From the NCBI GenBank assembly GCA_008933995.1, contig WARS01000093.1:3935001-3999000 (forward strand): DNA of 64,000 bases. The letters run 5' to 3'. The translations under genes and the position numbers were made by a program. The DNA is from Datnioides undecimradiatus. Its lineage: Eukaryota > Chordata > Actinopteri > Lobotiformes > Datnioididae. Below are positions 1,020 to 43,500 of the stretch, piece after piece (position 1 is the stretch's first letter; each line of letters opens with the position of its first letter). Below the pieces are notes generated by a model, which had not been told where the DNA came from, did not search any database, and worked only from the letters and a program-made list of their open reading frames with translations.

Positions 1020-1667
1020 CAGAACCCTGAAGACATTAACGAGTCCCATAAAAGGAAAAAAATTAAAGTTTTAATGTGAGCTGGTCATCACACAGCTGCT
1101 GAGTGTGTGTGTGTGAGTGTGCGCGGAGGGGTGTGTCCGGAGGCTGGTCAGTTTGTCTCGTTAATGACCCCTCCTACCTTAACGAGATAACGAGCTAATA
1201 ATGAGAGCTCGTTAGGACGGACAGACAGACGGAGCTCAGCCAATAAAACACAGTTAGTGCTCCCTCTGCAACGATCACACCTGCTGAAACAATGGCAACC
1301 AGTCTGGGCAGGTGTGTGTGTTGGGTGGGGGGGCAGACAGGTTAACTGGTGACTTGAATGAAGCATCAGACCTGTGGTAATTATGGTAATACACCTTACA
1401 GCCAATCAGAGAGCAGGGCTCTGTTTCTAGGACATAAGTATTCATAGTTTAGCGTCCTTGAGGAGGAAGGAGAGGTCCTTGAGAAAATCACTGAGGATGC
1501 TGCAGTGGTACTTGAGAGGGTCCTTGAAGAAATTTTCAAAATTCCTTAGAGTGGCTCCAGGGTCCTTGTGGAGTAAAATCCTTTTAAAAGGTCAGTCCTT
1601 AAATTGGTTCCTGAGGTTTGATGTGGTCTTGTGGTTCTGGAAAAGGTTCCAGGAGGACATTTAAATT
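1..1667. other. Gene-free flank rich in GT/CA microsatellites
   Basis: I see no exon with splice sites or conserved protein here. The stretch contains several short GT/CA tracts (about 121-245, 337-375, 525-545, 968-1018 and 1100-1125), which make every overlapping reading frame low-complexity. The part from about 1450 to 1660 is a weak repeat built on CCTTGAGA/GTCCTTG-type words and leads directly into the pentanucleotide satellite. Confidence 0.7.
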
Positions 1668-3727
1668 TCAGAAGAGAACAGGGCAGGACAGGACAGAGTA
1701 GAACAGAACAGCACAGGACAGAACAGGACAAACCAGAACAGGACAGGACAGGACAGGACAGAACAGGACAGACAGACCAGGACAGGACAGGACAGGACAG
1801 CACAGAACAGGACAGGACAGGACAGGACAGGACAGGACAGACCATACTAGGACAGGAAAGGACAGGACAAAACAGAACAGACCAGGACAGAACAGGATAG
1901 AACAGACCAGACCAGGACAGGACTGAGCAGGACAGACCAGGACAGCACAGACCAGAACAGGACAGGACAGCACAGACCAGGACAGAACAGAACAGAACAG
2001 ACCAGGACAGGACAGGACAGGATAGAACAGACCAGACCAGACCAGACCAGACCAGACCAGGACAGGACAGGACAGGACAGGACAGGACAGGACTGACCAG
2101 ACCAGACCAGACCAGGACAGGACAGGACAGGACAGAACAAGACAGGACAGGACGGGACAGCACAGCACAGGACAGCACAGGACAGCACAGGACAGGACAG
2201 CACAGGACAGGACAGAACAGAACAGGACAGGACAGGACAGGACAGGACAAGACAAACCAGGACAGGACAGACCAGACCAGGACAGACCAGGACAGAACAG
2301 GACAGGACAGGACAGAACAGGACAGACCAGAACAGGACAGACCAGACCAGGACAGACCAGGACAGGACAGGACAGAACAACACAGGACAGGACGGGACAG
2401 CACAGGACAGGACAGGACAGAACAGGACAGGACAGCACAGGACAGGACAGACCAAGACAGACCAGGACAGACCTGACCAGGACAGAACAGATCAGAACAG
2501 AACAGGGCAGGACAGGACAGAGTAGAACAGACTAGGACAGGACAGGACAGGACAGGACAGAGTAGAACAGAACAGCACAGGACAGAACAGGACAAACCAG
2601 AACAGGACAGGACAGGACAGGACAGGACAGAACAGGACAGACAGACCAGGACAGGACAGGACAGGACAGCACAGACCAGGACAGACCATACTAGGACAGG
2701 AAAGGACAGGACAAAACAGAACAGAACAGACCAGGACAGAACAGAACAGGACAGGACAGCACAGCACAGCATAGCACAGCACAGCACAGCACAGCACAGG
2801 ACAGAACTGACCAGGGCAGACCAGGACAGGACAGGACTGACCAGGACAGACCAGACCAGACTAGGACAGGACAGGACAGGACAGGACAAAACAGAAGAGA
2901 ACAGACTAGGACAGGACAGCACAGACCAGGACAGAACAGGACAGAACAGACCAGGACAGACCAGACCAGACCAGAACAGGACAGGACAGGACAGGACAGG
3001 ACAGGACAGGACAGAACAGAACAGCGCAGAACAGGACAGAACAGGACGGACCAGAACAGAACAGACCAGGACAGGACAGCACAGGACAGACCAGAACAGA
3101 ACAGGACAGGACAGACCAGGACAGGCCAGACCAGACTAGGACAGGACAGGACAGGACAGGACAGGACAGGACAGAACAGAACAGAACAGAACAGAACAGG
3201 ACAGGACAGGGCAGAACAAGACAGACCAGGACAGACCAGAACAGGACAGACCAGACCAGGACAGGACAGGACAGCACAGGACAGGACAGGACAGAACGAG
3301 ACAGGACAGGACAAGACAGACCAGGACAGGACAGGACAGAACAGAACAGAACAGAACAGAACAGAACAGCACAGACCAGGACAGAACAGACCAGGACAGG
3401 ACAGCACAGGACAGACCAGAACAGGACAGGATTGACCAGGACAGGATTGACCAGGACAGACCAGAACAGAACAGGACAGGACAGGACAGGACAGAACAGA
3501 ACAGAACAGGACAGGACAGGGCAGAACAAGACAGACCAGGACAGACCAGAACAGGACAGACCAGACCAGGACAGGACAGCACAGGACAGAACAGGACAGG
3601 ACAGGACAGGACAAGACAGACCAGGACAGGACAGGACAGAACAGGACAGAACAGAACAGAACTGACCAGGACAGACCAGAACAGCACAGCACAGGACAGG
3701 ACAGGACAGGACAGGACAGGACAGAAT
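1668..3727. repeat. Pentanucleotide (GGACA/GAACA) satellite, about 2.06 kb
   Basis: A continuous array of 5-bp units reads GGACA on the + strand, interspersed with GAACA, GACCA and GCACA variants. Longer blocks recur: the segment around AGTAGAACAGAACAGCACAG appears near 1697 and 2520, and ACCATACTAGGACAGGAAAG near 1841 and 2686. Distinctive blocks therefore return about 820-845 bp apart, a higher-order duplication. Because 5 is not a multiple of 3, the complementary strand is open in every frame and yields long artificial Cys/Pro/Val/Leu/Ser reading frames that are not proteins. The array ends cleanly at GGACAGAATTGAC. Confidence 0.95.
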
Positions 3728-27876: not shown

Positions 27877-30154
27877 CCCCCAGCGTCCAAGGACAGTCCG
27901 CACGAAAATTAGAGAGGAAGTGGCGATCCACTAATATAGAAGAATTTCACCTTTCCTGGAAAGATAGTATTATAACATACAAATCAGCCCTGCGTAAGGC
28001 AAGAACTGCCTATTATTCCAAATTAATAGAGGAAAATAGGAACAACACCTGATTTCTATTCAGCACTGTAGCCAGGCTGACAAAGAGTTACAGCTCTGTT
28101 GAGCCAACTATTCCCTCAGCTCTCAGCAGCAATGACTTTATGAATTTCTTTACTAGTAAAATCATAGATATTAGAGAAAGAATTCATTACGCACTCTCTT
28201 CAACTGTTAGAGATCCATGTGTGTCACGTGCAGCAGCCCCTGAAATGTCTGCAGGCCCTAATTTATCTCTAGACCACTTCTCTCCTATAGATCTCACTGA
28301 ACTGTCCTCAACAATTATTAGATCCAAACCCTCAACTTGTCTTTTGGACCCCATCCCAACTCGTCTTCTCAAAGATGTTTTGCCCCTGATTGGCACTTTT
28401 ATATTAGACCAGATCAATCTGTCATTACTAACAGGTTATGTTCCACAGGCTTTAAGGTTGCTGTCATCAAACCTTTACTCAAAAAGCCTTCTCTTGACCC
28501 TGATGTTTTAACGCACTATAGACCAATATCCAACCTCCCCTTTATTTCTAAAATCCTTGAAAAGGCCGTGGCTGATCAGTTCTGTGATCACCTGCAGAGG
28601 AGCAGTTTATTTGAAGCATTTCAGTCAGGATTTAGAATAAACCACAGCACAGAAACAGCATTGGTAAAGGTTAGCAACGACCTCCTGTTAGCTTCAGACA
28701 ATGGCCTCGTCTCTTTACTTGTCCTGCTGGACCTCAGTGCTGCATTTGACACCATCGATCACAATATCCTACTACAGAGACTAGAACATGTCATTGGCAT
28801 TAAAGGAACAGCACTAAGCAGGTTTAAATCTTATCTATCGGACAGATTCCAGTTTGTCCATGTTAATAACGACTCGTCCATGCACACAAAGGTTAATCAT
28901 GGAGTTCCACAGGGTTCTGTGCTTGGACCATTGTTGTTCTCCCTATACATGCTTCCCCTAGGCAATATTATTAGAAAGCACAACATAAATTTCCACTGCT
29001 ACGCGGATGATACACAGCTATATTTATCTATGAAGCCGGAAGAAACAGATCAATTAGTCAGACGTCAGACATGTCTGACAGACATTAAGGCCTGGATGAC
29101 TTGTAATGTTTTGCTTCTGAATACAGACAAAACTGAGGTGATTTTGTTTGGGCCTAAACACCTCAGAGACAGGTTATCTGACCTCACAGTCACTTTGGAT
29201 GGTGTTACCCTGGCCTGCAGTTCTACCGTGAGGAACCTGGGAGTCATATTTGACCAGGACATGTCCTATCAGTCCCATATTAGGCAGGTCACTAGTTCTT
29301 TCACTTGTGTAACATAGCTAAGATTAGGAGTATCCTGTCCAAAAGTGACGCCGAAAAGCTAGTCCACGCATTTCTTACCTCAAGGCTGGACTATTGTAAT
29401 TCCTTGTTGTCGGGTTGTCCGACTAGCTCACTGCGAAGCCTCCAGCTCATCCAAAATGCTGCTGCAAGGGTTCTGATGGGAATTAGCAAGACAGATCATG
29501 TTTCTCCAGTTTTAGCTTTTCTTCATTGGCTCCCTGTAAAGTCCAGAATAGATTTTAAAATTCTTCTCCTTAATGGCCAAGCTCCATTGTACTTCAATGA
29601 GATGCTAATTCCCCATTACCCCAACAGATCACTTCACTCCCAGAGTGCAGGTTTGCTTGTGGTTCCCAGAATCTCCAAAAGTAGAATGGGAGGCCGAGCC
29701 TCTAGCTATCAGGCTCCTCTCCTTTGGAACCAGCTGCCAGTCTGGGTCTGAGAGGCAGACACCCTCTCTACTTTTAAAGTAAAGCTTAAAACCTTCTTGT
29801 TCGACAAAGCTTACAGCTAGTTCTAGTTATCATGTGAACTACACCCATAGTCTAAACTACCCCTCCATGCCATCCCTTAGTTATGTTGCTATAGGCCAAG
29901 GCTGCTGGGGGCGTCCCATGATCGTCTCCATACTCCTCCTCTCCCCTCTCTCTCCTCAAACTCATTTTAACCATCACAGATTAACCATTAACTCTGTGTC
30001 CTCTCTCCCCTAGTGCTGTGCTTGTTTCTCTCTGGTCTCTCTCTCTGTACCTCTCTACAGATACCTGTGGCTCCAGAGCTGAACATCTGATCTGTGGCTC
30101 CACCAACCTGCCCCGTGTCCTCTACTGCCATTTGCTTTTATTATTCTATATTGT

Positions 30155-32475: not shown

Positions 32476-34898
32476 ATGGGTCCGGTGAGTGACCGCAGGA
32501 GCACCGTTAAATGGGTGTCTCACGGCGGAGTTTGTGTGGGCAACATGTTCTCACTGTAGTCAGGGTTTAATTCAACTGGCTCCGAGCATCAACAGCACCG
32601 TTGTTTCTGCACTGAGACACGTCGGTCTGTCGGTCTGTCCCGCTGCTGAAACTGAAGCTGCTGCTGACGCACAGGACGGTGTAGGTCCGACCAGCTGATC
32701 ATCACAGGAATCATTATAATCACACACTCACATGAACACACACATCACACTGTAACCTGTATTTTAATTGAACGTTGTCACGTGATCCTTCGGTCTTTAC
32801 TCGTTCGCCTCGTTGTTTGTTTGATCTCCTTAACAAACACAGTAAACAATAAGACGAGTAAACAAAGGCTCGGCTCTCTCTCAGGCTCATCACCATCACT
32901 CTGTTATTATGCCACATGTTTCACGGGTTAATTTATGCTTTCTGGATTATATTAAGTTAATCTCTAACACGTCTGGGATTATTATTGATCATTAACTTGT
33001 GGTCACACTCTTGTTTCCTTTCCTGTCTTGCTTCCTTTCCTCCTCCCTGCAGCCTCGTTCAAAGAAGCGGCGGCCGACGTTCCGCCGCCTGTTGAAGACG
33101 AGCGGCGTGAAGCTGGAGAACAAACTGAAGAACCGTCAGCTGAAGCAGCAGAATGTCGCCAAGAAGCAGCGGAAAGAGCAGAAGAGGCTGAGACAGGCAG
33201 TGAAGGACGCCGCCATCAGGATGCCCCAACCCCTGGAGACATACAGGAAGAGACCCGGTGAGGGAGCATGGCTGCTAATTGGCTGGCTGCTGTACGACTG
33301 ATCACTCCATCAATCAGCTGCGTGTCGATGTTTGTCTATAAACAAACCATAAAGACGACACCGTCACCTGAAACTGTCGAATATAATAAACGATTATTGA
33401 TTTTAAACGGAACCATGTGACCTTGTCACCGCGTGGGTGAGCTGATCTCATTCCAGAGTTGAAGTGAAAGAATTACAGTGTTAATGAGGCAAATTACCAA
33501 CCTCATAGCAAAGCCATGTGACCTGTTGACGAAGACAGTGATTTGTAGATGATGTCATCTCCCATGATGCACTGCTGCATTTGTTGATGGTGTCTGTCTG
33601 ACAGAGGAGGAGGAGGAGGAGGAGTTCCTGGAGACTCTGCCCACCGACATGATGGAGGATGAAGATATGCAGCAGATGACTGTCATGGCTCGACAAGCCT
33701 CATTCATCACCAGAGACCTGTCGTCATGGTAACGCTAGTGAACACACACACGCATGCCTCATATCACTGTAGCTTGGAGCAAGATGGTGGATGTGACTGT
33801 AGCTGTACAACACACACACACACACACACAGTGACTGAGGTGTGTTTGTTTCGGGTGGCGGCTTGTCTTAGCGAGCCGGTGCACAGCGGGAAGAAGAGGC
33901 GCTCAGAGGTGATTCGTAGTTATGAGAAGGTTCCCAGGAAGATGGCAAGGATGGAGGAGAAGGAAGTGATCCACCTGCTGCCCATCAAAGACAAGTCAGG
34001 AGTGATCCCGCAGAGCGTGGAGAGAGGTACGGCTCGCTCTACTGATCCACTGATCGATCTGCTGACTGATCTGATCAGTTAGAGAGTAAACATCCTCTGT
34101 TGTTTGTTTGTAGTGGTGAACAAGCAGCCGGAAGAGGAGGAGCTGGAGGAGCCAGAGGAACTGGAGCAGCCAGAGAGCGGTACGATCGACCTTTGACCTG
34201 ATCACTGGTTTGATTTGAGTGGATCATTAATCAGTTAGGAGCCTGTTGTGACCTGCGTGTCTGTGCGCAGGGGGGGCACTGCAGAACTGCGCTAGGCTCA
34301 CAGCGGAGCAGCAAGAGCAGCTGCGCCTTCACACCATCCATGAGAGGAAGCTCCGCATCGGCAGCCTGGGGTCAGCCATCGTGTCGGACCCACACAGCAA
34401 CGTGAGAGCAGACCTGAGATCAGCTGACACTCCATGATCCACCAGCTGTCTTACACCGTGTGTGTGTCCGTGTGTATGTGTGTGCTCAGATCAAGCGGCT
34501 GAAGGAGCTGCGAGCGATGCTGATGGAGTCTGACCCGTGTGTGGCAGTGACGGTCAGGAAGCTGGTGATGGTGTCTCTGATGGAGATCTTTAAAGACATT
34601 GCCCCCACCTACAGGATCCGACCTCTGACCGCAGCTGAGAAGGCTGCCAAGGTGTGTGTGTGTCCGTGTGTCCAGGCTTCCCCTGCTGGTCTGTGTGTTT
34701 GTCCTTGTTCGTGGTGTGAATGTGTTGGTTGTAGCATGTCCTGAGCGGAGGTGGAGCCGGAGCGTCCGATTGGTTGACGAGCGTTTCCTGTTTGTGCAGG
34801 TGAAGAAGGAAACACAGCAGCTGCGAGAGTTCGAGGAAAGTTTGGTCAGTCAGTACAAGTTCTACCTGGAGGACCTGGAGCAGACCGTCAGAGGTACA

Positions 34899-34939
<41 letters not shown>

Positions 34940-36289
34940 CCTGCAGGTACCATTTGGCTGAATGTACCTCTGCCTGCAGACTGGAAGCAGAGGAAGAAGA
35001 AGCGCAGTCAGGCAGTGGCTCTCCAGTCGTACCACAGCCTCGCTGAAGTTGCCGTGCGTTGCCTGTGTGAGTTGCTGCTCGCATTGCCTCACTTCAACTT
35101 CCACAACAACATCATTGTCGTCCTCGTGCCGCTGATGAACGACCCCACCAAGAAGGTGAGACTCAGCCCGCGAGCTTCACCTGTGTGCTGTGATGTGTTC
35201 AGGTGTCTGTGTGTGACAGGTGCTGTGATGTGTTCCAGTGTCTGTGTTACAGGTGTCAGGTATGTGCTGTGATGCGTTCAGGTGTCTGTGTGTTACAGGT
35301 GTCAGGTATGTGCTGTGATGCGTTCATGAAGCTCTTCCATCAGGACAAAGTGGGCGGGGCTTCATTGGCCACTGTGCAGGTCATCTCCGGCCTTGTAAAG
35401 AGCCTCAACTACAACGTCCGGCCAGAGGTAACGAATCAAACACACACCACCTGTGATGTCAGAGCTCACCTGACCCCCTGACCCCCCACCCCAGGTGCTG
35501 AGGACCCTGCTGAGTCTGCGGATCAAAGAGGTGGAGATGAAGAAGGACATGGAGGACACAGCACCAACGAAGAAGTTCATGAACAACAAAGAGAAGAAGA
35601 ACCTGTCGAGGATGCAGAGGAAGGTAAACACCCACACACCCACACACAGCAAACAGAACACATGAAGCAGCTGCCTCACGAGTCTCTCCCCCCCCAGTGG
35701 AGGAAGGCAGAGGAGCAGCTGGAGAAGGAGCTGTTGGAGGCTGAAGCTTCAGAGAGCAGAGAGAAGAAGATCAAACTGGTGAGTGAGAGACACGAGAACA
35801 CCGGTCGCTGATGACACCAGCCTCAAACTCACCTTCTCTTTCTGTTCCTCCTCCCTCTGCCCCTCCTCCCCGTGCTCCTCCTCCCTCTGCTCCTCAGCAT
35901 ACAGAGACTCTGAACGTCGTCTTCCTGATCTACTTCAGGATTTTGAAGAAAGCTCAGAAATCTGTTCTGCTCCCCGCTGTTCTGGAGGGGCTGGCCAAGT
36001 ATGACACACACACACACACACACAGTGGTAGTGCTGTAGCATTGACTGTGATGTCACTTCCTGTCAGTTTTGCTCACCTGATCAATCTGGAGTTTTTTGA
36101 CGACCTTCTCAGCGTGCTGCAGAACCTCATCCAATCAGGAGTGAGTATTGACTTCAACCTGATTTTATTTGATTCGATTGGTTGATTGAGTGATACTTTG
36201 ATTGATCAATTGACGTGACTTCTGCAGGATCTCACCAATCGGGAGAGTCTCCACTGCATCCAGACAGTCTTCACCATCCTGTCAGGACA

Positions 36290-36326
<37 letters not shown>

Positions 36327-37757
36327 TTGAGCCACTGTCAGTCTGGCCCAGATCAATAAGGTTTTTGTGTGTGTGTGTGTGTCAGGTGACGTTCTGAACA
36401 TCGACCCGTTGACCTTTTACTCACAGCTCTATAGGAAGTTGCTGCAGCTTCACGCAGGTCAGAGACTTTGTTCACACACCTGTTCATGTTCACCTGTGTG
36501 TGTTCTGCATGATGTTTGTCTACACACACACACACACACACACGCGCATACACACACAGACATGCACAGACCAGAACAACAGCAATGGTGAAGGTAGAGG
36601 AGGCAGTATGATGTAATGTAAAGTAATCAGATTACTTTTACTATCTTTAATACTCAGGGGCACCCAATGATGACATCATCATCGTGCTGCAGTGCCTGGA
36701 CGCCATGCTGACACGCCGCAAGAAGCAGGTGACCCTGCAGAGGGCGATGGCATTCATCAAACGGCTGAGCATGCTCAGTCTGCACGTGCTGCCCAACGCC
36801 AGCGTGGGAATCCTCGCCGCCAACAGGGCTGCTATGCATGTGAGTTTGTGTGTGTTTGTGAATTATTCGGTTAACAGATTAGGCTCGTTGGAAATGAGCC
36901 AGGCCTGCACAGCATTGATCGCTGCACAATGCATGCTGGTTAGATTTTTGTCAGACTTGAGCCCGACTTGCTTTGACATCATAAACTAATGGACAATGAT
37001 AATCTCGGGAGATCAAGGCGCCGCAGCTACTCTCCCCCGACTGCAAAACCCAGGGCATGATGGGAAACGCCTGGCTCTCGTCTGATCAAAGAGCTCATTG
37101 GCTCTTAGTTTGGCTGTCACATGGAAAGTTTTGTAGGAATTTGTAATTTTTCCATCTAATTTAAATAGTTTAGATTGGAAATCATTATTCCTGTGTTGTG
37201 AATGAAAGTTTAACCTGTCAACGAACAGAACTGAACTATTATTATTATTATTATAGTAGTAGTAGTAGTAATAGAGGTAGTGTAATAATGGTGATAATAA
37301 AGTTTATTTCTAACTGCTCAAAACAAGCAGTTACACTTAAAAAGGACAGATAAACACACACACTTCTACATATCTGATCATAATCAGGCCTGCAGTGCTG
37401 ATCAGCCAGAGAAATTCCTGATATATAACTGTTGTGAAGGGACTGGGAGCCCTGGCTGTGCTGCAGGTCAACGTGCATCATACAGAGCAGTCACCTGCTG
37501 CCTGTGCAACACTGTGAACGCCTGTTGTTTACTCTGTGTTTGTGTGTGTGTCAGGCCTTCCCTAAGAGTGACTTCCTATTGGATAATGAAGTTCAGGGCA
37601 GTGGCTTCTACCTGCCGGAGCTGGACGAGCCAGAGCACTGCAACGCACAGAACACAGCAGTGTGGGAGCTACACACACTGCAGGTACACACACACACACA
37701 CACACACACTGCAGGTACACGCACACGCACGCACACACACACACACACACTGCAGGT

Positions 37758-37789
<32 letters not shown>

Positions 37790-37790
37790 G

Positions 37791-37826
<36 letters not shown>

Positions 37827-37827
37827 G

Positions 37828-37863
<36 letters not shown>

Positions 37864-37864
37864 G

Positions 37865-37900
<36 letters not shown>

Positions 37901-37901
37901 G

Positions 37902-37937
<36 letters not shown>

Positions 37938-37938
37938 G

Positions 37939-37974
<36 letters not shown>

Positions 37975-37975
37975 G

Positions 37976-38011
<36 letters not shown>

Positions 38012-38012
38012 G

Positions 38013-38048
<36 letters not shown>

Positions 38049-38049
38049 G

Positions 38050-38085
<36 letters not shown>

Positions 38086-38086
38086 G

Positions 38087-38122
<36 letters not shown>

Positions 38123-38123
38123 G

Positions 38124-38159
<36 letters not shown>

Positions 38160-38160
38160 G

Positions 38161-38196
<36 letters not shown>

Positions 38197-38197
38197 G

Positions 38198-38233
<36 letters not shown>

Positions 38234-38234
38234 G

Positions 38235-38270
<36 letters not shown>

Positions 38271-38271
38271 G

Positions 38272-38307
<36 letters not shown>

Positions 38308-38308
38308 G

Positions 38309-38344
<36 letters not shown>

Positions 38345-38345
38345 G

Positions 38346-38381
<36 letters not shown>

Positions 38382-38382
38382 G

Positions 38383-38418
<36 letters not shown>

Positions 38419-38419
38419 G

Positions 38420-38455
<36 letters not shown>

Positions 38456-38456
38456 G

Positions 38457-38492
<36 letters not shown>

Positions 38493-38493
38493 G

Positions 38494-38529
<36 letters not shown>

Positions 38530-38530
38530 G

Positions 38531-38566
<36 letters not shown>

Positions 38567-38567
38567 G

Positions 38568-38603
<36 letters not shown>

Positions 38604-38604
38604 G

Positions 38605-38640
<36 letters not shown>

Positions 38641-38641
38641 G

Positions 38642-38677
<36 letters not shown>

Positions 38678-38678
38678 G

Positions 38679-38714
<36 letters not shown>

Positions 38715-38715
38715 G

Positions 38716-38751
<36 letters not shown>

Positions 38752-38752
38752 G

Positions 38753-38788
<36 letters not shown>

Positions 38789-38789
38789 G

Positions 38790-38825
<36 letters not shown>

Positions 38826-38826
38826 G

Positions 38827-38862
<36 letters not shown>

Positions 38863-38863
38863 G

Positions 38864-38899
<36 letters not shown>

Positions 38900-38900
38900 G

Positions 38901-38936
<36 letters not shown>

Positions 38937-38937
38937 G

Positions 38938-38973
<36 letters not shown>

Positions 38974-38974
38974 G

Positions 38975-39010
<36 letters not shown>

Positions 39011-39011
39011 G

Positions 39012-39047
<36 letters not shown>

Positions 39048-39048
39048 G

Positions 39049-39084
<36 letters not shown>

Positions 39085-39085
39085 G

Positions 39086-39121
<36 letters not shown>

Positions 39122-39122
39122 G

Positions 39123-39158
<36 letters not shown>

Positions 39159-39159
39159 G

Positions 39160-39195
<36 letters not shown>

Positions 39196-40122
39196 GGTAC
39201 ACACACACACACACACACACTGCAGGTACACGCACACGCACGCACACACACACACACACTGCAGGTACACGCGCACGCACGCACACACACACACACACAC
39301 ACTCTGCAGGTACACGCGCACGCACGCACACACACACACACACACACTCTGCAGGTACACGCGCACGCACACACACACACACACACTCTGCAGGTACACG
39401 CACGCACGCACACACACACACACTCTGCAGGTACACACTTTTACACAACTAAATTGTTGTGTGTGTGTTGCAGAGACATTACCACCCGGTCGTGCGGCAG
39501 TTTGCAGTCCACCTGTGTCATGGAGCTCCCAGCGAAGGATCGGCAGCACTCAGCGTGGAGCTGAGCCGCAGGTATGAGCTCTTAAAGGGGCAGCGCTCTT
39601 ATTTTGAGTGTGTGTGTGTGTGTGTGTGTGTGAGCGGGGCTCGACCTCACTGTGACTCCTCTCTGCTGCTGCTCAGTCATTCTTGGAGAGATGAGGAGCG
39701 TTTGTTTTACTGCATTACATCTCCCTGCTGATACCAATTTGCTGAATCGCTGTGATGTCATTGGCTGTGTGTGTCTGTGGTCACTTCCTGTCCAGGTCCC
39801 CGGTGGAGCTGTTTAGCCTCTACAGTGTTACAGACATGACCTTTAACCCCCCCGTAGCTCTGCCTGGCACCAAGAAAAAGGTACAGTGTTGATCACTGGT
39901 GATTGACTATTGTGTATTGATTATTGGTTCACCCCCTGTTTTGAACAGGTTTGTCAATAAAGTTTAGTTTGTTTTTGTTTTCAGGATTGTTTTGTGGGCA
40001 GAGTGTCGCTGCTGGACGGCGAGCTGCAGAGGCGAGCCCAGAGAGTCCTGACAACCGCCGAGGAGACACAGCTGGACTTCAACACACACACTCACAGTGA
40101 CACACACACACACTCACAGTGA
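32476..40122 (+). CDS. noc3l: NOC3L, nucleolar complex protein 3 homolog
   Basis: Twenty-one exons join in frame to 800 aa (human about 800): 32476-32484, 33053-33257, 33605-33728, 33872-34026, 34114-34179, 34271-34401, 34490-34651, 34800-34893, 34980-35155, 35299-35427, 35495-35623, 35698-35778, 35898-35998, 36068-36140, 36228-36291, 36386-36457, 36658-36839, 37555-37683, 39474-39571, 39796-39880 and 39985-40122. Landmarks are the basic N terminus ([16 protein letters not shown]), [15 protein letters not shown], the NOC3 N-domain ([29 protein letters not shown]), [49 protein letters not shown] and the CBF/Mak21-like C-domain with [20 protein letters not shown]. The protein works in the nucleolus with NOC2 in export and maturation of pre-60S ribosomes. 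Start choice: the 9-nt first exon MGP has a good Kozak context (GCAGCCATGGG). Tandem repeats sit on the exon 10 acceptor, the exon 18 donor and the stop codon. Confidence 0.96.
34903..34940. repeat. (CA)n in NOC3L intron 8
   Basis: A short CA run followed by a GCCTGCAGGTACC word resembling the unit of the large array in intron 18. Confidence 0.8.
35180..35312 (+). repeat. Tandem duplication covering NOC3L exon 10 acceptor
   Basis: Three to four copies of a 45-52 bp unit contain TGCTGTGATG(C/T)GTTCAGGTGTCTG and TTACAGGTGTCAGGTATG. The last copy contains the true acceptor (TGTTACAG|GTG) and the first codons of exon 10. At least one complete decoy acceptor lies 45-50 bp upstream. Confidence 0.85.
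36294..36325. repeat. (GT)n at NOC3L exon 15 donor
   Basis: A GT run starts immediately at the splice donor, so the intron begins inside the microsatellite. Confidence 0.85.
37672..39436 (+). repeat. 37-bp minisatellite carrying the NOC3L exon 18 donor
   Basis: Each unit is TGCAGGT followed by about 15 AC dinucleotides. The first TGCAG|GTACAC is the real end of exon 18. From 37823 to 39192 the TGCAG word recurs with exact 37-bp spacing (1369 bp = 37 x 37) and no visible variant. Shorter or variant units containing CGCACGCAC flank the core at about 37684-37822 and 39193-39436. In total about 45-48 identical donor-like sites lie in tandem in intron 18. The exon 19 acceptor follows 37 bp after the array. 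Confidence 0.95.
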
Positions 40123-40198
40123 CACACACACACACACACACACTCACAGTGACACACATACAAACACACAGTGACACACATACAAACACACAGTGACA
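40083..40198. repeat. CA/CTCACAGTGACA repeat containing the NOC3L stop
   Basis: CACACA tracts are punctuated by ACTCACAGTGACAC. The repeat encodes the last 13 residues of NOC3L ([13 protein letters not shown]), provides its TGA, and continues into the 3' UTR. Confidence 0.85.
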
Positions 40199-40559: not shown

Positions 40560-43500
40560 ACAATTCAATTCAACTTTATTTATAGAGCGCCAGTTCACAA
40601 CACAAGACATCTCAGGTCTCTTTACAGTCAGAGCAGAGACTCATTACTGTTAATCACACCCAGCAGCTCCACCACCAGCAAACACCTGGAGACAGAGGCA
40701 GGAGAGACTTCCTGTGACAGGCTGACACCTGTGACTGATCCTGGCTCTGCCCTGACTGGCTGGGGGAGAGAGAGAGAGAGAGGTTTTCTTTTAAAGTAGA
40801 GAGGGTGTCTGCTCCTGAACCCAAACTGGCAGCTGGTTCCACAGGAGAGGAGCCTGAGAGCTAAAGGCTCGGCCTCCCATTCTACTTTTGGAAACTCTGG
40901 GAACCACAAGCAAACCTGCTCTCTGGGAGCAAAGTGATCCGTTGGGGTAATAAGGAATTAGCATCTCATTGATATACAATAGGGCTTGGCCATTAAGAGC
41001 CTTGTAAGTAGAGGGACTTTAAAGTCTATTCTGGACTTTACAGGGAACCAATGAAGAGAAGCTAAAACTGGAGAAATATGATCTCTCTTGCTAATTCCCA
41101 TCAGAACCCTCGCTGCAGCATTTTGGATCAGCTGCAGGCTTCTCAGCGAGCTAGTTGGACAACCTGACAACAAGGAATTACAGAAGTCCAGCCTTGCGAA
41201 TGCATGGACTAGTTTTTCAGCGTCACTTTGGGACAGGATGTTCCTGATCTTGGCTATGTTGCGCAGGTGAAAGAAGGCAGTCCTAGTGACCTGACTAATG
41301 TGAGACTGAAAGGACATGACATGCTCCAGTCTCTGTAGTAGGATATCGTGATCGATGGTGTCAGATGCAGCTCTGAGGTCCAGCAGGACAAGGACAGAGA
41401 CAAGGCCATTGTCTGAAGCTAACAGGAGGTCGTTGCTAACCTTAACCAATGCTGTGCTGTTTCTAAACTGCTCCTCTGCAGGTGATCACAGAACTGATCA
41501 GCCACGGCCTTTTCAAGGATTTTAGAAATAAAGGGGAGGTTGGATCACCACTTCCTCTTTAACTTTCGTGAGAACTGTCTTAAAGTGCGTAACTGTGAGT
41601 CAAACCATGGAGCTAGCTTCCTCTGGTTAATGGCTCTCTTATTCTGTTTCATAGGGGCCACAGTGTCCAGGGCTGTGTGCAGTGTAGCTGCAGTATTATC
41701 AACAAGATGATTGATATGTGCTGGACTAGTGGTTAGGCTGCTACCCTCTGCTGTAATGGCACATGGCAACGAGGCCAAAAGAGATGGAATTATTTCCTTA
41801 AATTTGGTAACAGCATTATCAGAGAGACACCGGCTGTAGGTAGCTTCCCTCCCAAATGCTGAGAAGTTCATGATTGTGAACTGAAATGTTATTAAAGTGG
41901 TCAGATAAAAGAGGGTTTTGGGGAAACACTGTTAAATGTTCAGTTTCTGAGCCATACGTCAAAACAAGATCGAGGGTGTGATTAAAGCAGTGAGTTGGTT
42001 TGTTAACTGTCATTGGTGTCGTCTACATGAATGTTGAAGTCACCCACTATAATTACTTTATCTGAGCTGAGCACTAGTTAGATAGATAAGAAGTCAGAGA
42101 ATTCAGATAAACACTGAATAAGCAGCAGGCGAGCGATACACAACAACAAACAGAACTGGTTTCTCTGGCCTATCATTAGGGTGGCAGAGACTGAGAGTGA
42201 GAGACTCAAACGTTTTAAACTCAGGCTTAGGTCTAGGATTGATTAATAAACCTGAGTGGTAGATTGCTGCCACTCCTCCTTCTCAAGGAATATGGTGATT
42301 AATGTGACATTTTATTGTGGTGTGTTTAGGTCCAGATAACGTGGTGGTATTAATTCTTATGAGGTTTTTATGAATAACACCTCTTGAATTTTTTACCCCA
42401 GGTAGTTTAGGTGGACAAGGGACAGACACAGTCTCTATAGGAAACTGGGGGTAGTGGTGGTTATGGGAGGGTGACAGCTCTAAAGAAACTGCAGAGAAGC
42501 GTGTATGACAGCAGCTCTGCTGCCTGGTCTCTGCTCTGGTTTGTCAGGTCTTAATATAATTTGCCATATTTCTATAAATGAGAGCCGCTCCATCCAAAGT
42601 AGGATGAATACCGTCTCTCCTAATGAGACCAGGTTTTCCCCAGAATGGTTTCCAATTATCTATAAAGGCCACGTCGTTTGCTGGACACCACCTTGACAGC
42701 CAGCGATGGAGTGACGACATCCGGCTAAACATGTCGTCACTGGTCAGATTGGGCAGGGGTCCAGAAAAAAGTCCAACATTAGCAAACTTACACCGACTCT
42801 ATGTTAATGTTGGTGACCTCCGACTGCCATAACCAGATGTCATTTCCGCTGACATTAAAAACAATTTTATTGAATCTACGTTTTTCCTTAGTCAGCAGTT
42901 TCAAATAAGATTCAACGTTGCCCACTCTGGCCCCGGGGATGCATTTAACTGTGGTCACGTCTCTAACTTCACGTTACGCAAAATAGAGCTGCCAATAACC
43001 AGAGTCTTGACGTCAGCGGGTGTGTCGCTGAGTGGGGAAAATCTCTTGGAAACATGAAGCAGTTGGTGGTGAACCGTGGGCTGTTGTTTCGGGCTACGTT
43101 TCCTTCGGGCTGCCACCAAGCCACCCTGGCTTTGGGGAACGGCTAACAGGAGCTACCCTGGGACCGCTAGCAGAGGCTACGCTGGGCAGGTCCGTACCGG
43201 CTACTGGGGACTGGCTAGCTAATGCTACAGGGGGGCTTTCAATGATGCGGAGCTGTGTCTCTACCTCCTTAAGCCTCGCCTCCAAAGATATGAGTGCTAC
43301 ATTTAGCACACAAATCATTATCATTAACACCCGCACACAGAGCAAAACAGAGGAGAAGCAGGGGAAGAGAGAGCAGCCATGGGTAGTGATCGAACAAGCT
43401 AACCAGTGGTGAAAAATGGAAAGGAGTAAAATCCCCAAAAAGCCGTGTGAAACAGGTGTTAAACAAAGGTGTGCGTGCCAATGCCATAATTTGGCAAAAT

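Follow-up and report, generated by a model that had tools for sequence, protein, structure and literature searches.

A NOC3L splice donor repeated 48 times in a fish minisatellite, probably through AC-run slippage across the exon-intron junction

The gene NOC3L of the fish Datnioides undecimradiatus contains an intron of 1790 nt (37684-39473), nearly the whole of which is occupied by tandem copies of its own 5' splice site. Within the window, that is the whole 64,000-nt stretch of DNA analysed here (contig WARS01000093.1, positions 3,935,001 to 3,999,000), the junction word TGCAG|GTACAC (TGCAGGTACAC) is present in 48 copies between 37679 and 39436. The first copy starts at 37679 and contains the true junction, the last starts at 39426, and no further copy occurs elsewhere in the window. 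Tandem copies of exon-intron junctions recur at other exon ends of this genome, and duplicated junctions are statistically linked to AC runs in the exon. We consider it probable that the NOC3L array is a minisatellite which arose by slippage of AC runs across the exon-intron junction.

The array, which like the flanking exons reads on the plus strand, consists of a homogeneous core between two diverged edges. The true junction, with the donor GT at 37684, lies in the first of the three units (31, 41 and 35 bp) that make up the 5' edge (37679-37785). The core (37786-39191) consists of 38 units of TGCAGGT followed by (AC)15, each 37 bp long and identical in every letter, and each with one CAG|GTACAC donor and one PstI site. 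At the 3' edge (39192-39436), units of 29, 39, 45, 45, 39 and 37 bp and a partial last copy have diverged and include CG-bearing variants. Both edges are graded, and the unit at 37710 is similar to that at 39221. Tandem Repeats Finder describes the array as extending from 37686 to 39438, with a period of 37, 47.0 copies, 96% matches and 2% indels; head-to-tail copies, a unit of more than 6 bp and high identity make it a minisatellite. This layout of edges and core corresponds to the usual picture of a minisatellite that has grown from the middle, and the 38 (AC)15 runs without a single length variant suggest that the core expanded recently. With a mutation rate of 1e-4 to 1e-5 for each dinucleotide run and generation, 38 invariant runs should acquire a first variant in the course of some hundreds to a few thousand generations.

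The gene context identifies the first copy as the real splice junction. When the translations of five exons around the array are joined, they match human NOC3L (8fkv_SU) with an E value of 7.2e-76, and the alignment has no gap at the junction, where the fish sequence ELHTLQ|RHYHP stands against ELHALRRHYHP in human. The coding exon 5' of the array (37555-37683) ends in CTACACACACTGCAG, which contains an 8-nt AC run encoding His-Thr codons; the next coding exon (39474-39571), also matching NOC3L, ends in ELSRR. The array thus takes in a genuine gene's exon end together with its splice site, the unit containing TGCAG and an AC run and the junction being placed by homology. An earlier note on this DNA had proposed both that the unit contains the NOC3L exon end with its donor and that this real donor has been multiplied, and the anatomy of the array together with the junction homology confirms it on either point. 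The extreme homogeneity which the note had described, with 37 exact steps from 37823, holds as well; the core is in fact one unit longer and starts at 37786. Of 74 candidates for the exon-bearing stretch in the assembly of 581 Mb, 40 were scored and the stretch was found once; a second array with this unit was not seen in the search of that assembly, in which repeat counts may be lower bounds. At its 3' end (39437-39473) the intron carries a branch-point-like ACAACTAAATTG, recognized by eye, a GT-rich tract TTGTTGTGTGTGTGTTGCAG whose sequence complements that of the AC units, and the acceptor.

In the mechanism that we infer, the ancestral exon end CTACACACACTGCAG and the intron start GTACACACAC would have placed a short TGCAG|GT core between two AC runs. 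These runs would have acted as slippage arms, the 8-nt run in the exon end being read as the left one. Replication slippage or unequal exchange between them may then have duplicated the core together with its donor, and later unequal exchange may have raised the number to 48, the 38 identical copies being the latest. Splicing would still take place mainly at the first copy, the only one with the full upstream exon in front of it, and the other 47 donors would be mostly silent by-standers within the intron. Occasional use of a downstream donor would either yield frameshifted transcripts that are removed, as expected for 28 of the 48 copies, or add His-Thr-rich residues through the 19 downstream donors that are in frame.

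Junctions of this kind are duplicated elsewhere in the genome. When two AGGTACACAC words at a distance of 10-30 nt were searched for, 77 pairs came to light, of which NOC3L accounts for 39. By hand count the pairs fall into 19 places; contigs C205 and C207, as well as C433 and C434, seem to carry the same sequence. Thirteen of these places, NOC3L included, read as coding exon ends with a tandemly copied junction, one (L040) is an array behind an exon donor, and five (L044, L045, L046, L047 and L053) are non-exonic or unclear, the 18 places outside NOC3L having been classed by eye from the sequence ahead of the first copy. The 12 other duplicated exon ends are L039, L041, L042, L043, L048, L049, L050, L051, L052, L054, L055 and L056, and all have fewer copies than NOC3L. 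Family matches of the exon were obtained for L050 (THF dehydrogenase, 1.9e-12), for L055 (plexin RBD, 2.3e-12) and, under the Pfam cut-off yet spanning the junction, for L041 (EML propeller, 1.7e-23). Matches were weak and under the cut-off for L040 (disintegrin, 1.9e-6) and L052 (0.003), and those of L051 and L054 are doubtful only.

Two of these loci show further peculiarities. At L040, an ADAM-like disintegrin exon has its donor followed immediately by a 20-bp unit (reverse-complement consensus CACACAAACACAGGTACACA) in about 34 copies (1200-1885, minus strand), which contain AGGTAC but no copy of the exon end. L049, on contig C173 (about 880-1020 in reverse-complement coordinates), has a two-type donor array behind a coiled-coil-like exon end (...REHTLQLE), in which junction copies alternate between CAGCTGGAG|GTA-like and CAGTTTGAG|GTA-like forms every 27-31 bp.

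The slippage mechanism is borne upon most directly by the exonic side of the junctions. Taking as a measure the longest alternating A/C run within the last 40 exon bases, we found that 8 of the 13 duplicated junctions reach 6 nt or more, whereas 5 of the 40 unduplicated AC-flanked donors do so (Fisher p = 0.0011, the 6-nt cut-off being one of four that were tried). By rank test the run lengths differ with p = 0.017, or with p = 0.020 if the comparison is confined to the 16 single sites judged clearly coding. The 40 comparison donors were no random draw: they are the first listed single places of CAGGTACACACACAC, a word that is itself donor-like, after removal of the L041 array (3 rows) and of C17:2075039, both known to be tandem. 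The exon end of L049 was set by hand to the upstream GTACGCAC copy. A second AGGTA(C/T)AC within 300 nt downstream was present at none of the 40 single sites, which is partly so by construction since known tandems had been omitted; L058 has one 181 nt upstream. Whether donor arrays are concentrated at exon ends was also considered, with 13 of the 19 tandem places coding compared with 16 of 40 single sites that are clearly so; this was dropped as evidence, the judging by eye having been unblinded.

In order to distinguish selection on donors from a general mutational tendency, the donor word may be compared with control words. The donor word was not tandemly duplicated at more places than the permuted non-donor word AGTGACACAC, which forms 55 pairs and by hand count also falls into 19 places genome-wide. 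This equality implies that a general mutational process suffices, with the restriction that a single permuted word is a thin control and that word counts differ widely: the permuted word reversed gives 87 pairs and 340 single occurrences, and among slightly longer words the donor form CAGGTACACACACAC occurs 413 times (41 of them in the NOC3L array), the permuted form 274 times. Nor was a frame-preserving spacing of copies found, the first spacing being divisible by three in only 2 of the 13 duplicated junctions, namely in L050 (33 nt) and, doubtfully because variant copies lie between, in L048 (186 nt). Relative to the permuted word, duplication of donors thus looks neither favoured nor clearly avoided. 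One AGTGACACAC cluster (G000:C490:6287961-6289727) covers about 1.8 kb, an extent like that of the NOC3L array, and is devoid of donors.

What the additional donors would mean for the transcript was addressed by trying each of the 48 computationally for its reading frame. The earlier note had expected downstream use to change the frame unless the number of added units is a multiple of three. A change of frame is indeed the usual outcome, with 28 of the 48 donors frameshifting (15 by one, 13 by two), while the simple rule of every third copy fails because the edge units are not 37 bp long: the 20 in-frame donors are copies 1, 3, 5 and 8, then every third copy up to 41, and copies 43-47. The array itself is open in each forward frame, and in the six frameshift cases printed the last exon junction follows the stop at a distance of 67 or 95 nt. 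Transcripts with a stop at such a distance ahead of the last exon junction are expected to decay. The intron that is left measures 1790 nt for copy 1 and 43 nt for copy 48. The array donor CAG|GTACAC is ordinary in its U1 pairing, with a duplex of -7.3 kcal/mol that ranks 8th among the 14 NOC3L donors scored, two of the 16 listed donors not having been located. Splicing most likely takes place mainly at the first copy.

Several observations weigh against an origin by slippage and a predominant use of the first copy. Donor-word pairs exceed those of the reversed donor word (77 vs 5), roughly as the single occurrences do (413 vs 68). The strength of the link to exonic AC runs varies with the cut-off, as 5, 7 and 8 nt give p = 0.031, 0.0016 and 0.0023, respectively. 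In five of the 13 duplicated junctions no AC run in the exon reaches 6 nt, so that another microhomology must act there. The coding status is for the most part judged by eye in 9 of the 13, and L039, L042, L043, L048, L049 and L056 gave no Pfam match. As to donor choice, the intron would shrink from 1790 nt to 119 nt with copy 46 and to 80 nt with copy 47; several other NOC3L introns are short, and a preference for short introns would therefore favour the late copies.

These points lead to alternative explanations, each of which we regard as improbable to a varying degree. The array could be a length-polymorphic modulator of splicing, the number of copies tuning the share of frameshifted or lost NOC3L mRNA either directly or through hnRNP L bound to the (CA) runs. 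The 48 equivalent donors with ordinary U1 pairing and the frameshift that 28 of them would bring, with early stops in the six cases printed, are in keeping with such a role, as is the excess of donor-word pairs over the backward control; moreover, (CA)n repeats are described, in the part of the source available, as splicing enhancers or repressors to which hnRNP L binds (PMC3940906). Yet the permuted word is duplicated at as many places although it is rarer as a single word, and the near absence of spacings divisible by three offers no sign of frame being preserved. There is little evidence for this role, which we hold to be unlikely. Somewhat less credit still is due to the suggestion that donor choice is made by base pairing between the acceptor's GU tract and the AC run of a single copy, after the manner of the fish introns of Lin et al., a class which the portions seen of two reviews describe (PMC7404189; PMC9198270). 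The intron does have AC at its 5' boundary and a GT-rich tract at its 3' boundary, it is the only one to combine both among the NOC3L introns viewed by eye (14 donors), and in the predicted fold the GU tract is almost fully paired (17.9 of 20 positions). The preferred partner, however, changes from copy 1 for the intron by itself to copies 47 and 48 once the exon flanks are included in the fold, and GT-run acceptor-like sites within 420 nt of the 40 other AC-flanked donors are about as frequent downstream (8) as upstream (7). As a genome-wide property, bridging of AC and GT tracts was hence rejected, no excess being present at the 40 sites in a comparison that is underpowered and limited to 420 nt. 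We give the same low credence to a docking-selector system that would have been born from the minisatellite: the acceptor GU tract could pair with any of the 48 AC runs, and array length together with local pairing would set donor choice and survival of the NOC3L mRNA. Equally low is our credence in the broader idea that coding His-Thr runs (CAC ACA) at exon ends turn the exon-intron junctions of AC-rich fish genomes into recurrent hotspots of duplication, from which new donors would continually arise.

Doubt about the assembly goes further back, to the array itself, whose copy number or perfect homogeneity might be a product of the assembler; 38 perfect (AC)15 units without a length variant are indeed unusual in an array so rich in microsatellite sequence. 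Against this stand contigs of up to more than 20 Mb, which suggest long reads, the likelihood that noisy reads would yield dinucleotide errors rather than perfection, the graded variants at both edges, as in real minisatellites, and the single occurrence of the exon stretch among the candidates scored. An artefact therefore appears very unlikely. At the far end of the scale, and even harder to credit, lies the use of the intron-proximal copies, in which copy 46 or 47 would define a short intron and most of the array would be exonised as a long in-frame His-Thr-rich insert. That copies 43-47 are all in frame, that copy 47 leaves a mere 80 nt and that the array is open throughout would permit this, whereas the computed insert of about 557 to 570 residues would fall into a segment that matches human NOC3L gaplessly, and the in-frame edge units (39, 45, 45 and 39 bp) may be due to chance. 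NOC3L is, furthermore, an essential protein. Slippage between the AC runs thus remains the explanation that we prefer.

Tandem repeats at exon-intron boundaries are already known; a donor multiplied to 48 copies and the association with exonic AC runs were not found in the open-licence literature searched, as covered by titles and the beginnings of abstracts. Zhuo et al. reportedly described, in 2007, alternatively spliced introns that derive from tandem arrays with AG|GT in each unit. The NOC3L array shares the AG|GT of each unit with these and differs in that its unit derives from a real exon end; a unit of 37 nt falls below the length that an intron needs. Regulation by hnRNP L through intronic CA repeats is said to have been reported by Hui et al. 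in 2003 for a plain microsatellite, and the CA runs of NOC3L are likewise intronic, while lying just downstream of a donor and being interrupted by donors every 37 bp. In human paralogues, internal tandem repeats at exon-intron boundaries alter splicing patterns, with 27 intron modifications given in the part of the report available (De Grassi and Ciccarelli, 2009; PMC2812944). As far as that part goes, those repeats too are minisatellites at an exon-intron boundary, and they differ between paralogues and form new introns, in contrast to an array of 48 AC-based units on an existing donor in a gene found once. The reviews cited above, in the portions available, also describe fish introns whose AC and GT tracts at opposite ends pair and allow splicing without U2AF2; the NOC3L intron resembles those introns (Lin et al., 2016) in its complementary tracts at opposite ends, with the difference that its AC side is a 48-unit array and has a donor in each unit. 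Another fish intron, intron 1 of MSTN-2 in Sparus aurata, has a tandem repeat at its 5' end as well, according to a source that also deals with minisatellites of the GH gene (PMC3045353). There, the accessible part of the account describes a length polymorphism of one or two copies of a 150-bp unit and does not describe the donor as repeated, unlike NOC3L, in which every copy includes one.

The array amounts to a natural competition experiment, in which a single exon is followed in cis by dozens of near-identical donors that differ in almost nothing but position, and it bears on the question of how vertebrate splicing picks among equal 5' splice sites. It also leads to a testable rule, according to which AC runs that flank a junction on both sides would make it prone to tandem duplication. 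From duplicated junctions, new alternative donors and inflated introns could plausibly arise.

Other repeats are present in and around the same gene. At 35183-35326, a 46-bp tandem repeat copies a splice acceptor of NOC3L together with the first bases of the following exon (TGTTACAG|GTGTCAGGTATGTGCTGTGATGCGTTCA), and the gene thus carries a repeated acceptor besides its repeated donor. Another NOC3L intron (34894-34979) begins with GTACACGCGCAC(AC)n, resembling the variant edge units of the array, and has CTGCAGGTAC behind the AC run. At the 3' end of the coding region, an AC-rich minisatellite (40082-40192) encodes a His-Thr-rich C-terminal tail followed by a stop, about where the human NOC3L chain ends. 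The gene is flanked at 28322-29317 and 40958-41485 by open frames which by eye resemble fragments of LINE-type reverse transcriptases. Further upstream in the window, a 2-kb array (1678-3724) is made up of about 410 copies of the 5-bp unit ACAGG, with a match of 79%.

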